Shown: positions 47,806 to 53,593 of the stretch, in pieces | Numbering within the stretch: the stretch's first letter is position 1 | How the letters are laid out: the number at the start of each line of letters is the position of its first letter | Source: Chloroflexota bacterium | GTDB taxonomy: Bacteria; Chloroflexota; Anaerolineae; Anaerolineales; UBA4823 | Direction: 5' to 3' | DNA length: 64,000 nucleotides | Assembly (NCBI GenBank): GCA_029557965.1 | Contig: JAKQIM010000025.1 | Span: forward strand, 1 to 64,000 | Notes under the pieces: generated by a model | The model's input: only the letters and a program-made list of their open reading frames with translations | Told to the model about the DNA's origin: nothing | Databases searched by the model: none | Position numbers and translations under genes: made by a program

Positions 47806-49221
47806 TTAACGTGAGTCCTCTGATTGATTGGTATCGTTGTCAGCCAGCAGAGTAGGCAGCTCGCTTTGGATAGGGGCCTTGGCCGCCTCAGCTACAGGCT
47901 CAGACAGGGCTGCTGCCTCGTCCAAGGCGGCTGGCTCAATGGTGGAGGCGGGTTGGGGGGCCGGCAGGCCGCGGCGTAAGTAGCGGTTGAAGGCAATATA
48001 TGCTGCCCCATTGGCCAACACCATGAATACCAGGCCTACGATCGCCACAGACCCCAATGTGTGAAAAGCATCTGGAAGGACCAGGGGCTCGGGGAGCTGC
48101 ATGGTCCCTACGCTTAAGATTGCCATCCCATTCCATAACCCGTGCAGGGTGATGGCTAAGCCGTATGTGAGCCCCAGGCGTAGGTAGCGTCTTTCGTTCC
48201 AGGCAGATACCAACGCCCAACCGGTCAGGCCCGTGGTCAGCATATGCAACAGCGCCGTAGCAATGCGCACGGTGACCAGGGCGCTCCATCCCTCGCCGCC
48301 CATGCTGGCATTGCCCAGATTCTCAAACAGTGCAAAGCCGGCGCCGCTTAACACCCCCCCCGCAAAGCCCTCGGCAGGCGTCAAGCCGCGCTTTGCCAGG
48401 AACCATAGGCCAATGGGTTTGAAGATTTCTTCGATCAGTGGCACGATACCAGCAACCATCAGCAAAGCTGCCAGCCATGTGCCCGGGCGCATGAGGTAAG
48501 GCCCGAGGATGCGCAAGATGGTTTCTTCATTGGGCGGCGCATATTGCAAGCGCTCTGCCAGTTCTGTGATTTCGGCTGCCAGAGTTGGTTGGCTGGTGAC
48601 CCAAACTGCCCACAGGATGATCGCCACGACAAAGACACTCAGCTCAATGACCAGGATCAGCGAGGGTCCAATGACCAGCCCTGAAGCAAAAAGCCCCCAG
48701 GAGCGTTGGAAAGAATGGTGTGGCAGGCCCCGCAAGCCTAAGAGCACCAGCCACAGCACCGGGATGCCAATGGCAAGCATATGCAGGGGCGCCAGCAGCC
48801 ATCCCAGCCGGTCATTGCGTGAAACAAAGCTGCCAAGCAGCAGGGCCAATGCTAACAGGATGAAGCAGACGATAGTAACGGTAGCCCAAGAGCGGCCATT
48901 TACCAACGAAACCTTGGATAGCAAACCGGTCTTGGGGGATTTTCCCAAACCAAACAGGCGCCGGGTGGCATACCAGGCGGATGGCAGAAGCAGTGCGCCG
49001 CACATCCCCAGCCCAGCCGCCAGCAAGAACGACTGCGTGGTGAGCGAATTGGGTGTGGCAGGCTGGAATAGCTGCGCCAGGCCGACCACCAGGCATACCA
49101 GGGCCGCCAGCAGCAGCATGGCTGAAGTCAACAGGCTTAAGATCATCTGGGCAGCGGAAGGCCAGTGGAATGCAGATGTAGCCGAGGATTGGATTGGGGA
49201 AGTAGAAGGTATTGTTTGCAT
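47806..49221 (-). CDS. PrsW-family intramembrane protease-like protein
   Basis: This 471-residue protein has about ten membrane helices. The catalytic-type motifs of PrsW/Abi-like glutamate metalloproteases are visible in order: EE in 'VPLIEEIFKPIGLWFLAKR', 'GVLSGAGFALFENLGNAS', His in 'IATALLHMLTTGL' and His in 'ITLHGLWNGMA'. PrsW cleaves anti-sigma factors, so it might act on membrane regulators such as the DUF5667 protein here (speculative). The tail of about 60 residues is polar and Ala/Pro rich. Start ATG 49221 is uncertain; a GTG at 49278 is also possible. Confidence 0.85.
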   Translation of the reverse strand: MQTIPSTSPIQSSATSAFHWPSAAQMILSLLTSAMLLLAALVCLVVGLAQLFQPATPNSLTTQSFLLAAGLGMCGALLLPSAWYATRRLFGLGKSPKTGLLSKVSLVNGRSWATVTIVCFILLALALLLGSFVSRNDRLGWLLAPLHMLAIGIPVLWLVLLGLRGLPHHSFQRSWGLFASGLVIGPSLILVIELSVFVVAIILWAVWVTSQPTLAAEITELAERLQYAPPNEETILRILGPYLMRPGTWLAALLMVAGIVPLIEEIFKPIGLWFLAKRGLTPAEGFAGGVLSGAGFALFENLGNASMGGEGWSALVTVRIATALLHMLTTGLTGWALVSAWNERRYLRLGLTYGLAITLHGLWNGMAILSVGTMQLPEPLVLPDAFHTLGSVAIVGLVFMVLANGAAYIAFNRYLRRGLPAPQPASTIEPAALDEAAALSEPVAEAAKAPIQSELPTLLADNDTNQSEDSR

Positions 49222-49293
49222 GGCTTTTGTGTGAGGCGCGTGGACTGGGATTGCCAGTTCCACGCGCCTTATGAACACCTCAGTGGTTTGGTA

Positions 49294-50610
49294 CTACTTG
49301 ATTTCGATGCTGATGTTGATGATCTCGTCACCTGGCGGCAGGTCGGCATTCTGGGATGGATCGCGCGGGGTCAGGCTTGCCAGGACATCCATGCCTTCGA
49401 TCACTTCACCAAAGATGGTGTAGTTGCCATCCAGGTTGGGAGCCGCGGCGTATGTAATGAAGAATTGACTGCCGTTGGTATCGGGGCCGGCATTGGCCAT
49501 ACCCAACAGGCCGGGTCGATCATACTTCAAATCAGCCATCACCTCGTTCTCGAAAGCGTAGCCAGGGCCGCCAAAACCGGTGCCGGTTGGGTCGCCGGCC
49601 TGGGCAATAAAGCCGGGGAGTACCCGATGGAAGGTAACCCCATCATACCAGCCGCTTTGGGCCAGGAAGATGAAGTTGTTGACTGCCAAGGGGGCTGTTT
49701 CGGGGAACAATCTGATCACCACATCGCCCTTGGCTGTGTGCAGGGTGGCAATGTACTCGTGCTCCGCATCGATGGTCATCGGTGGGCACTGCGTGAATTG
49801 GCGTTCCTCCAGCAGTGTGAGCTTGACCACTGCTGCAATGTTGAAGTAATCCATTGAGACATTGGTCGGCCAGGAATTGCCGTTGATCAAGATGAATGGC
49901 GTACCGGGTATGCCAATCTCTGTGCCGAAATCCCAACCGCCCTGGGCAAAGTCAATTAACTCCTGGCTTTGCAGGTCGGTATTGAACTGCTCAACATCCA
50001 GCTCAAGCGCTTGGGCCTCGCTCGCCAACCACGCTTCAAACTCGGCAACCGATAGGCCAGCCCATTCCGACTGCCTGGCAAAGAGAATATCGTGCATTTC
50101 CCAGAACTTGCCCTGGTTGCCGGCCGCCTCAGCGCCACGCGTTGCCAGAGAGGCTTTATCGTGGAAAGGCGACTCGGGGGTGCCGATCAGAGGAAAGTGA
50201 CGATAGACAAAACGAACATCATTAGGAAATTCTTCGATGAGTCGCTCCATCACGGGAGCGATAACTGCGCAGTATGGTCATTGGAAGTCGCTGTATTCGA
50301 TGATCGTGACCTTGGCGTCTGCGGCTCCCTTGGTCCAATCCGCTTCGCCAACCGGCGGAAAGATGGATTGTTCGGTAGGGCCGGGAGTGGGCTGGCGGGA
50401 TACTACGGTGCAGCCCGAGCTCGGTTCAGATACTGCGCCTGCAGTGGGCACGCTGCGCGTGGCAGTGGCAACCGCGGGCTCGGTGTTGGCAGGTTTGCTT
50501 GTGGGCGCCTGCGCGGCGGGTGCCTGTGCCGTGGGTGCCTGTGTAGCCCCCCCATTACAAGCACTGACCAATATGGTCAGCAGTAGCAAAGGAAAGATTA
50601 GCTTTCGCAT
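49294..50610 (-). CDS. Selenocysteine-containing lipoprotein: DsbA-like thioredoxin plus cyclophilin domains
   Basis: One frame, 438 residues, with a TGA at 50278-50280 read as Sec-111. It starts at ATG 50610 (AAGGAGC ribosome site) with a lipoprotein signal (LIFPLLLLTILVSAC, lipobox VSAC) and a Pro/Thr/Ala-rich spacer. The thioredoxin-fold domain (about 95-275) opens 'IIEYSDFQ-U-PYCAVIAP', where relatives have CPYC, and includes 'GTEIGIPGTPFILING'. A cyclophilin-type isomerase domain (about 290-430) follows: 'FHRVLPGFIAQAGDP' and 'NGSQFFITYAAAP'. The exported protein would make or reshuffle disulfides and isomerise prolyl bonds. A SECIS-like hairpin follows the TGA. Two separate genes is the alternative, much less likely. 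Confidence 0.85.
50242..50261 (-). promoter_or_regulatory. Candidate bacterial SECIS element
   Basis: On the minus strand, 16 nt after the TGA, TCGCTCC (50261-50255) pairs with GGAGCGA (50248-50242) as a perfect 7-bp stem with the six-base loop CGTGAT. The apical loop begins 23 nt after the TGA and has G at its second position. That fits the general bSECIS rule of a hairpin whose loop lies about 16-37 nt downstream with a G among its first two bases. Confidence 0.75.
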
Positions 50611-50722
50611 TTTTTGCTCCTTTGAAGGATATGCAGGCAATTTTACCAGTTAAAGGAATATTTCGGGTGCTATCGCAATAGATTCACGCCAGCTTAATCT
50701 TTATAGTAAAATGGGCAGAGTT

Positions 50723-51703
50723 ATGAACCGGAATGATTTGCTGCGTTTGAAGTTGATGGTCGTGTTGGCCTTGTTCGTGCCGGCCCTGGTGAGTTGTACG
50801 CCAGGCGCTGCGCCCGCGGTTGAACCCACCCCGGTGCAGGCTGCAACCCAAACGCCAACCCTGGTTGTTCCTACCCAGGTGACTGCCACACCAACGGCAG
50901 CCCTAACCGCCACGCCTACCACAGCCCCGTCTTCATCGCCCACGCCTGTACAGCCCTCTGCAACCCCCACTGAGGCAGCGCCCGGCTGCCTGAACTTGCC
51001 TGGGGTGGTGGAGATACACAGCCTTGAAACGACTCTTTTGCCTGATCCTCTGGAGTTCCGTGTTTACCTGCCGCCGTGTTACCAAGAGCAGGCGGGCCAG
51101 TCCTACCCGGTGCTCTACCTGATCCATGGGCAGAGCTTTACCGATGACCAATGGGAGCGTTTGGGCGCCGGCACCACGGCTGATGAGCTGATCGCCGCCG
51201 GAGAACTGCCGCCCTTCTTGATCGTCATGCCACGCGATCGGAGCTGGCAAGAGCCGACGTTTGATAATTTTGGCCGTGTGATCGTAGAAGAGCTGCTGCC
51301 ATGGGTCGATGCGCATTACCGCACCCGGGCCTTCCCCTCTTACCGGGCGGTGGGCGGGCTGTCGCGCGGCGGCGGATGGGCAGTGCACCTGGGCCTGGGC
51401 TATTGGCCTCTATTTGGGTCTGTGGGGGTACACAGCGGCTTTGCCTTTCAAAGCGATGCCAACAGTGGCGGCGTCAGGCGTTGGCTGAGCAGCATCCCGC
51501 CTGAGCTGATGCCGCGCATTTACATGGATGTGGGTGATAATGACCGCCCAGAGATCGCCCAGGCGGCAGCCTGGTTGGAACGCTTGTTGACCGAATATGG
51601 CCTGGCACACGAGTGGCATATGTTCAGCGGCTACCATGAAGAGGAATACTGGCAGGCGCACGTGGAGGACTATTTGCGCTGGTATGCCGCCCCCTGGAAA
51701 TGA
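50723..51703 (+). CDS. Lipid-anchored esterase (alpha/beta hydrolase, esterase D-like)
   Basis: This 326-residue lipoprotein has the signal 'LMVVLALFVPALVSC' with lipobox LVSC, then a Thr/Pro-rich spacer to about residue 90. The catalytic domain (about 95-325) shows 'YPVLYLIHGQSFTDDQWE', the nucleophile elbow 'VGGLSRGGGWAVHLGL' (Ser in GLSRG), Asp in 'YMDVGDND' and His in 'MFSGYHEEEYW'. It is related to esterase D and antigen 85-type hydrolases. The substrate is unknown. The start at ATG 50723 is preferred over 50711. The next gene begins 12 nt after its stop. Confidence 0.88.
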   Translation: MNRNDLLRLKLMVVLALFVPALVSCTPGAAPAVEPTPVQAATQTPTLVVPTQVTATPTAALTATPTTAPSSSPTPVQPSATPTEAAPGCLNLPGVVEIHSLETTLLPDPLEFRVYLPPCYQEQAGQSYPVLYLIHGQSFTDDQWERLGAGTTADELIAAGELPPFLIVMPRDRSWQEPTFDNFGRVIVEELLPWVDAHYRTRAFPSYRAVGGLSRGGGWAVHLGLGYWPLFGSVGVHSGFAFQSDANSGGVRRWLSSIPPELMPRIYMDVGDNDRPEIAQAAAWLERLLTEYGLAHEWHMFSGYHEEEYWQAHVEDYLRWYAAPWK

Positions 51704-51715: not shown

Positions 51716-53593
51716 ATGTCCCTGCGGTTGGAAGAAGTTGAACATATTGCGCATTTAGCCCACCTGCGCCTGGCAGAGGCAGAAAAGTTGCTCTATCGAG
51801 AACAGCTTTCGGCTATCCTGGAATATGCGGCGCGCGTGCAAGCCGTGGACACAGAAAACACCCCACCGCTGGCAAGCATCTTGGGTGGTGAAAGCGGCCT
51901 GCGCCCCGATGCCCCGCTGCCGGGCCTGGGCTTGGATGATCTGCTGCAAAACGCCCCTGCTGTTGCCCAAGATCAATTCCTTGTTCCCCCTGTGTTGGCC
52001 TCGAATTCAAAGCCGTTCAGGCAGGCTGCGTATCACGCCCCCTCTCCTTCAGGAAACAAGCCTTTGAAGGCGGATGAGGATTTGAAATCTCCGCTCGGGC
52101 AGGCCGCGTCCTCGCTGTTTGATGGCGGGCTGATCGAGACCATCCAGGCCCTGCGCCGGGGGCAGTTCTCAAGCCAAGAGTTAGTGCAAGATTGCCTGGA
52201 GCGCAGTCAGCAGTTAGAACCAACCCTGCATGCTTTCATCACCCTTGCACCTGAGCAAGCCCTGGCCCAGTCTCGAGAGGCAGATCGCCGCCTGTCTGCT
52301 TACCGCAAAGATCCATCTATGGACATCTCGCCGCTGTTGGGCCTGCCACTGGCGGTGAAGGATATCTTGTGCGTGGCAGGCTTGCCCTGCACCTGCGGCT
52401 CACGCATCCTGGAAGGTTTTGTGCCCCCGTATCATGCCACTGCCATTGAGCGCCTGCTGGCGGCTGGGGTGGTGATCGTGGGGAAGACCAACATGGATGA
52501 GTTTGCCATGGGCTCCTCGACCGAGAACTCAGCTTTCGGCCCCAGCCGCAACCCCTGGAACTTGAACCGGGTGCCAGGCGGTTCGAGCGGCGGCAGTGCC
52601 GCGGCCGTTGCGGCCCGGCTGGTGCCTGCTGCCCTGGGCAGCGACACCGGCGGCAGCATCCGCCAGCCGGCAGCTTTTTGTGGGCTGACGGGATTGAAAC
52701 CAACCTATGGGCGCATCTCGCGTTGGGGCCTGGTAGCTTATGGCTCTTCGCTGGATACGGTGGGGGTCTTGGCGCACAGCGCCGGTGATGCGGCATGGTT
52801 ATTGAGGGTCATGGCGGGCTCTGACCGGCGCGATCCTACCTCTCTGGATTTGCCAATGCCAGCCCTGCCTTCGGATGAAGGGCTCAAAGATTTAGCTGGT
52901 TTGCGCATAGGCATGCCGCGGGAATATTTCCTCCCTGGCTTGCAGATTGAGGTAGAATCGTTAATACACCAGGCGATCCAGGTCTTTACATCTTTTGGGG
53001 CCACGGTTTGCCCGGTCAGCTTGCCTCACACTTCGATGGCCCTGCCGGTCTACTATTTGATCGCCCCGGCTGAGGCCTCGGCCAACCTGGCCCGGTATGA
53101 TGGTGTGCGTTATGGCGCTCGCCTGGCAGGGGAGTCTTTGTGGGAACTATTTGACCACACGCGGGGTGAATTGCTGGGCCCAGAAGTCAAGCGCCGTATC
53201 ATGTTGGGCGCTTATGCGCTTTCGGCTGGTTATTATGATGCCTATTATGGGCAGGCGCAGAAAGTGCGCACCCTGATCTGGCAGGACTTTGAAAACGCTT
53301 TTGCTGAGGTGGATGTGATTGCCGCACCGGTCGCTCCGACCACGGCCTTCTCCATCGGGGCTCATGGCGACGACCCGCTGGCAATGTATTTGGAAGATAT
53401 CTTTACCCTGCCGGCTAACCTGGCAGGCATCCCAAGCCTGGCTTTCCCGGTTGGCTTCGACACCCAGGGGCTGCCGGTGGGTATGCAGTTAATGGCAGGC
53501 CGCGGTTGTGATGATCTGTTGTTGAAAGCCGCAGCAGCCTACCAGCAGGTGACAGATTGGCACCTGCGTAAACCCGGTGATTGTTTGATTTGA
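51716..53593 (+). CDS. gatCA: Fused GatC-GatA, Asp-tRNA(Asn)/Glu-tRNA(Gln) amidotransferase
   Basis: This 625-residue protein joins two normally separate subunits. Residues 1-95 are GatC (LEEVEHIAHLAHLRLAEAEK, then 'DTENTPPLASILGGESGLRP'). A linker of about 45 residues leads to GatA, an amidase-signature enzyme, with the catalytic triad visible: Lys in 'GLPLAVKDILCVAG', cis-Ser in 'PGGSSGGSAAAVAARLVPAA' and Ser in 'LGSDTGGSIRQPA'. It releases ammonia from glutamine for amidation of mischarged tRNA by GatB, whose 3' part lies at the window end. It starts at ATG 51716 without a ribosome site. Confidence 0.92.
   Translation: MSLRLEEVEHIAHLAHLRLAEAEKLLYREQLSAILEYAARVQAVDTENTPPLASILGGESGLRPDAPLPGLGLDDLLQNAPAVAQDQFLVPPVLASNSKPFRQAAYHAPSPSGNKPLKADEDLKSPLGQAASSLFDGGLIETIQALRRGQFSSQELVQDCLERSQQLEPTLHAFITLAPEQALAQSREADRRLSAYRKDPSMDISPLLGLPLAVKDILCVAGLPCTCGSRILEGFVPPYHATAIERLLAAGVVIVGKTNMDEFAMGSSTENSAFGPSRNPWNLNRVPGGSSGGSAAAVAARLVPAALGSDTGGSIRQPAAFCGLTGLKPTYGRISRWGLVAYGSSLDTVGVLAHSAGDAAWLLRVMAGSDRRDPTSLDLPMPALPSDEGLKDLAGLRIGMPREYFLPGLQIEVESLIHQAIQVFTSFGATVCPVSLPHTSMALPVYYLIAPAEASANLARYDGVRYGARLAGESLWELFDHTRGELLGPEVKRRIMLGAYALSAGYYDAYYGQAQKVRTLIWQDFENAFAEVDVIAAPVAPTTAFSIGAHGDDPLAMYLEDIFTLPANLAGIPSLAFPVGFDTQGLPVGMQLMAGRGCDDLLLKAAAAYQQVTDWHLRKPGDCLI

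Follow-up and report, generated by a model that had tools for sequence, protein, structure and literature searches.

The locus examined here raises the question of whether a bacterium uses UGA as a selenocysteine (Sec) codon in an exported protein that joins a DsbA-like domain to a cyclophilin domain. It lies in a window of 64 kb (the whole stretch of Chloroflexota DNA analysed, 64,000 nucleotides), where the original prediction had placed a probable selenoprotein at positions 49294-50610. This interval proved correct; the frame, for which no strand had been given, is on the minus strand and runs from an ATG at 50610 to a TAG at 49296-49294, and a plus-strand reading of the same interval encounters four more stops besides the TGA. 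The sole internal TGA, at 50280-50278, is situated at the junction IIEYSDFQ-U-PYCAVIAPVMERL. An ORF finder splits the gene into two halves (50640-50278 and 50253-49294), and the two predicted frames, parted by one TGA only, become a single 438-codon frame once this TGA is read through. The features of the locus, in order of transcription, are as follows.

50617..50623, minus strand: Shine-Dalgarno sequence AAAGGAG, six bases 5' of the ATG, read from the sequence
49294..50610, minus strand: whole proposed selenoprotein frame, 438 residues, from the translation with TGA read through and Pfam domains
50557..50610, minus strand: signal peptide with lipobox LVSAC and Cys18, identified by eye
49843..50337, minus strand: DsbA/Thioredoxin_4 domain, residues 92-256, from PF13462 and PF01323
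50278..50280, minus strand: in-frame TGA, codon 111, proposed to specify Sec as the first residue of UPYC, from the alignment
50242..50261, minus strand: putative SECIS hairpin, 20 nt, -10.9 kcal/mol, from folding and covariation
49351..49746, minus strand: cyclophilin-type prolyl isomerase domain, residues 289-420, from PF00160 and Foldseek matches
47806..49278, minus strand: PrsW-type intramembrane protease gene, 3' neighbor, PF13367 at 53.6 bits
47151-47798, minus strand: DedA/VTT gene, same strand as the selenoprotein frame

The window contains 13 pairs of frames separated by a TGA (each half of 100 codons or more, counted from stop to stop), so that the frame pattern alone is not evidence, and comparative evidence is needed. 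This pair stands above chance because of homology, its TGA being the only one in the aligned region and recurring on the same column in relatives. A search of the 64-kb window with Rfam at gathering scores found one tRNA and nothing else.

Among named genomes, the closest full-length relatives belong to Anaerolineae and other Chloroflexota. At E ≤1e-70, matches were present in 127 of the 396 genomes in a class sample, 55 of these 127 with the TGA form, and in 37 of the 400 genomes in a phylum sample, all 37 belonging to the same class as the source genome; a plasmid search returned 1949 matching records, none of which covered >80% of the query at a single site. Altogether, 155 loci were assembled: 16 from the search for nearest relatives in named genomes, 59 from the near-relative and class-sample searches, and 80 further loci (48 TGA rows and 32 hand-picked other rows), with the 48 TGA rows and the other loci together comprising every full-length TGA row of the near-relative and class-sample searches. 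The codon at column 111 was counted over 152 loci, including this gene and leaving out L027-L029, in which the site is not covered. It is TGA in 74 loci (because rows were picked, 74/152 is not a population frequency), TGC in 39, TGT in 17, and another codon in 22, and outside this column the aligned region is free of TGA in all 152 loci. The mark of a bacterial selenoprotein, an in-frame TGA aligned with the Cys of homologs, is therefore present: the alignment is unambiguous, with Cys at column 111 in 56/152 loci, which supports the prediction that Sec replaces the first Cys of a DsbA CPYC motif. Removal of five duplicates left 147 loci, 71 of them with TGA, and the motifs in these 71 distinct sequences are UPGC (46), UPYC (17), UPAC (7), and UPSC (1). 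Since 22 of the 152 loci carry no redox residue, the redox step is not essential everywhere. One family (f12, 16 loci) comprises (i) ten loci without the residue at 111 and with a Cys four residues earlier, in YCDFQ or YCEFQ (L129, L131, L133, L135, L136, L137, L139, L142, L149, and L153), (ii) four loci with neither Cys (L134, L140, L143, and L144), and (iii) two with Cys. Two matches to the DsbA half only, with one internal TGA each (G016:C235:2326-2901 and G054:C40:777-1433), are perhaps stand-alone Sec forms.

Beyond the UGA of the window gene, the RNA is predicted to form a 7-bp stem (50261-50255 with 50248-50242) closed by a CGUGAU loop (50254-50249); this hairpin starts 17 nt after the UGA, with 23 nt between the UGA and the loop. 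The limits given for bacterial SECIS (bSECIS) elements in the available part of PMC13188914 are a loop of 3-9 nt, a stem of 4-16 bp, a spacing of 16-37 nt, a G as first or second loop nucleotide, and an energy of at most -7.5 kcal/mol, and the window hairpin lies inside them (loop of 6 nt, stem of 7 bp, G second, 23 nt, and -10.9 kcal/mol). The 71 Sec members were sorted into signal types after inspection of their folds, and the classes are thus post hoc. Type A, represented by 32 Sec genes including that of the window, is a hairpin of 7 bp that spans nucleotides 17-36 after the UGA and carries a CGUGNY loop. In an ungapped alignment of type A, 92.9% of the 224 pair cells hold (208/224, against 129.6 with an sd of 5.1 under synonymous recoding), a count that, like those for the other type below, leans toward the pairs because the members were sorted by those pairs; slid versions of the structure pair in at most 57.1% of cells. 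Further, five of the seven pairs changed on both sides, and there are 33 doubly changed cells as compared with 11.5 in shuffles (0/500 as high).

Type B, found in 36 Sec members (among L145-L202), places a hairpin at nucleotides 30-50 after the UGA, behind another hairpin, with a loop of GGU in 29 members and of GUU, GGA, or GGC in 7; the family to which the window gene belongs has one hairpin instead. The other 3 of the 71 Sec members fit neither type. The two type-B hairpins together contain 45 doubly changed cells, as compared with 17.6 in shuffles, and 245/252 core cells are paired, as compared with 157.9 (sd 5.6) under synonymous recoding, whereas one of five whole-structure measures, that of further pair types, was not above the shuffles (98/500 as high). 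Pairing holds in 66.9% of cells of the first hairpin and 86.7% of those of the second, and RNAalifold kept the second only. While type A fits the numeric bSECIS limits in the available part of PMC13188914, the first hairpin of type B is less regular, and the type-B loop is 38 nt after the UGA, one past the 16-37 nt range. An outer stem closing a three-way junction was also considered for type B; it is present in at best 13/36 sequences and is hence not claimed.

The RNA hairpin is a conserved feature of the Sec members and is missing from most others, type-A pairing being present in 5, and type-B pairing in 3, of 76 non-Sec members. In an initial energy test of the 45 nt that follow the codon, 17 Sec loci did not differ significantly from 24 others (mean z of -0.79 and -0.22, respectively; p = 0.11). 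Over 147 loci with a codon-preserving null, the mean z was -1.42 for the 71 Sec, -0.43 for the 54 Cys, and -0.27 for the 22 other members, and the comparison of Sec with the rest gave p = 1.9e-7, a value that is too small because related sequences are not independent.

The source genome (2.16 Mb, 68 contigs, 56% complete) contains the Sec machinery for which the original prediction had proposed a search, namely SelA (444.3 bits), SelB (327.5 bits; cut-off 242.25), SelD (359.1 bits, one internal TGA), and a tRNA-Sec (73.9 bits, anticodon TCA). Its selD gene (L015, G000:C59:6336-7271) carries this TGA in frame, within SSCAGUASKL, and a 7-bp hairpin behind it, and is a probable second selenoprotein gene of the same genome. 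In the near-relative sample, some match was obtained in 61/61 genomes and the full-length fusion with one TGA in 18, SelA being present in 17 of these and tRNA-Sec in the remaining one. In the class sample, SelA alone was present in 48/55 TGA genomes and 55/72 others, which is not a significant difference (p = 0.17), whereas SelA or tRNA-Sec was present in 52/55 and 57/72, respectively (p = 0.019, the search for tRNA-Sec being confined to the 24 genomes negative for SelA); three TGA genomes (78, 78, and 85% complete) lack both.

The encoded protein comprises a lipoprotein signal, a Pro/Ala/Thr-rich linker, a DsbA-like domain, and a cyclophilin domain, so that the lipobox, PF13462/PF01323, and PF00160 confirm the joined layout that had been proposed. 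The signal ends in a lipobox, as expected of a bacterial lipoprotein (MRKLIFPLLLLTILVSAC; judged by eye). Membership of the DsbA family is indicated by Pfam scores above cut-off (68.3 bits against 23.2 for PF13462 and 57.3 bits against 25.6 for PF01323) in combination with a CxxC-type motif, here UPYC. The solved-structure relatives of this part include DsbA and disulfide isomerase chains; the best 50 of 1276 Foldseek matches, however, contain no DsbA structure among the matches listed, and the DsbA assignment therefore rests on sequence. Cys114 and Pro238, the latter presumably the cis-Pro, are invariant in 14/14 aligned proteins, as is Cys275 in the linker ahead of the cyclophilin domain, which may form a structural disulfide. 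The C-terminal part belongs to the cyclophilin family by its PF00160 score (146.7 bits; cut-off 21.7). When compared by eye with the catalytic residues of human cyclophilin A, the domain retains FHR, FF, and the Gln of FIAQ, and has Tyr in place of the LDGKH His. An AlphaFold2 model built from 14 sequences (mean pLDDT of 78.7 and pTM of 0.64, with residues 1-63 below 50) supports two folded domains, but not their mutual arrangement.

Gene neighbors were counted in 64 loci (72 given, of which 8 were dropped as 5 duplicates and 3 without the site), and the counts are lower bounds because most flanks were 1.5 kb. The PrsW-type gene, whose true start is probably the ATG near 49221, is found downstream on the same strand in 48/64 loci and never elsewhere, which suggests joint expression with the selenoprotein. 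The DedA/VTT gene is present in 20/64 loci and a divergent esterase gene in 5/64. Elsewhere in the window, GatC and GatA domains (PF02686 and PF01425) occur within one plus-strand frame at 51716-53593. A quick tree of 145 proteins, with column 111 masked and L039 and L040 left out, requires 25 changes for Sec, Cys, and other states and 4 for the two signal types; no direction of change is claimed because 47 of the 142 inner branches are weak.

The bacterium appears to read a UGA stop codon as Sec in a membrane-anchored DsbA-cyclophilin protein, and three other accounts of the TGA bear on this reading. That an ordinary Cys protein has suffered a nonsense mutation or a sequencing error, which would make the locus a pseudogene or an artifact, is scarcely credible. 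The TGC or TGT of the 56 Cys loci is one base from TGA, and the genome assembly is in fragments and incomplete; yet the same column holds TGA in 73 other loci, so that a base error for TGC or TGT, the outcome that the original prediction had named as fatal to it, is hard to hold. The frame is moreover open on both sides, the hairpin is kept where the TGA is and mostly lost elsewhere, and the conservation of the TGA over distant genomes refutes both a pseudogene and a base error. We give equally little credence to a changed code in which TGA is read as another amino acid, for instance Trp or Gly. An open frame is, as a general caution, in itself no proof of Sec, but the homologous loci have Cys, not Trp or Gly, at this column, the neighboring esterase frame ends in a TGA (51701-51703) just before the next gene start, and the tRNA with the TCA anticodon is of the Sec type. 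Regulated termination, by which UGA would be mainly a stop at low selenium, yielding a short lipopeptide with the full protein as a minor or selenium-gated product, is improbable, though less so than these two. Termination generally competes with Sec insertion, and the part before the UGA comprises a whole lipoprotein signal and linker; this part nevertheless holds no complete domain, its residues 1-63 are modeled with low confidence, and termination of this kind adds to a Sec reading rather than replacing it.

Overall, the best explanation is thus very probably that UGA 111 encodes Sec in an exported, lipid-anchored protein made of a Sec-DsbA and a cyclophilin domain. The machinery, structure, and conservation suggest that SelB and tRNA-Sec would decode the UGA under direction of the hairpin, and the lipobox that the product would be exported and held on the outer face of the membrane by a lipid anchor. 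From the domains, the DsbA-like part would carry out thiol/disulfide exchange via Sec-Pro-Tyr-Cys and the fused cyclophilin would perform prolyl isomerization on the same exported clients, while the PrsW-type protein may be a jointly expressed partner in membrane quality control or signaling. The protein could accordingly be read as an exported folding factor acting on its clients, a role deduced from its domains. A different function for the same selenoprotein, as an oxidase, a thiol enzyme that reduces peroxide, or a sensor that serves the PrsW-type protease, has a substantial chance of being right, albeit one well below even: most DsbA relatives are oxidases, and the PrsW-type gene is a conserved neighbor, but no VKOR partner was found in the source genome (56% complete). 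Selenylsulfides are usually hard to reduce, and a reductive or isomerizing role is for this reason thought likelier than net oxidation.

DsbA-like selenoproteins with UxxC (PF01323) are described in the available parts of PMC1794560 and PMC2398784, and the Rcas_1661 family thioredoxin-like (seleno)lipoprotein, NF041057, is listed as DsbG-like, with UxxC, in that of PMC13188914. The present protein resembles the former in its PF01323/PF13462 domain and UxxC motif, and differs in its cyclophilin fusion, which is unmentioned in the available parts of PMC1794560 and PMC2398784. The word cyclophilin is absent from PMC2398784 and PMC13188914, as is peptidyl-prolyl from PMC13188914; isomerase occurs twice in PMC2398784. 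With NF041057, our protein shares a lipoprotein signal, a DsbA-like domain, and a motif that begins with Sec or Cys, the match extending over residues 8-256, whereas the profile, with 247 positions, lacks the cyclophilin part; the protein scores 96.4 bits, about half of the equivalog cut-off of 190, and its DsbA part alone 75.5 bits, and all 14 aligned proteins match at E ≤0.001. The C-terminal domain is like single-domain cyclophilins (PF00160; PPWD1, 2a2n, and mycobacterial PpiA, 1w74) in fold and sequence, and unlike them in its predicted export and its fusion behind a Sec-DsbA domain. The literature searched, outside which most subscription papers and preprints lie, gave no description of a cyclophilin-fused Sec-DsbA form. 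Given the score at about half of the NF041057 cut-off and a fusion undescribed in that literature, we regard the protein as a selenoprotein of known type with a new architecture.

We further propose, tentatively and with a likelihood a little short of even, an undescribed Anaerolineae-wide family of membrane-tethered Sec-DsbA/cyclophilin proteins, encoded with a PrsW-type protease, in which a single and a tandem hairpin have replaced one another as the Sec signal. In the tandem form, the first hairpin would fold sequence away, so that the GGU loop 38 nt after the UGA could still serve the ribosome. Because the family contains Sec, Cys, and redox-less forms together, with two Sec signals, it offers a natural set for the study of Sec gain and loss, and also for the question of how SelB recognizes hairpins of different kinds. 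Genes of this sort would be split by annotation programs for which UGA is a stop, and the protein is perhaps annotated as fragments in many Anaerolineae genomes. If the Sec reading is right, the handling of exported proteins in these bacteria would be partly selenium-dependent.
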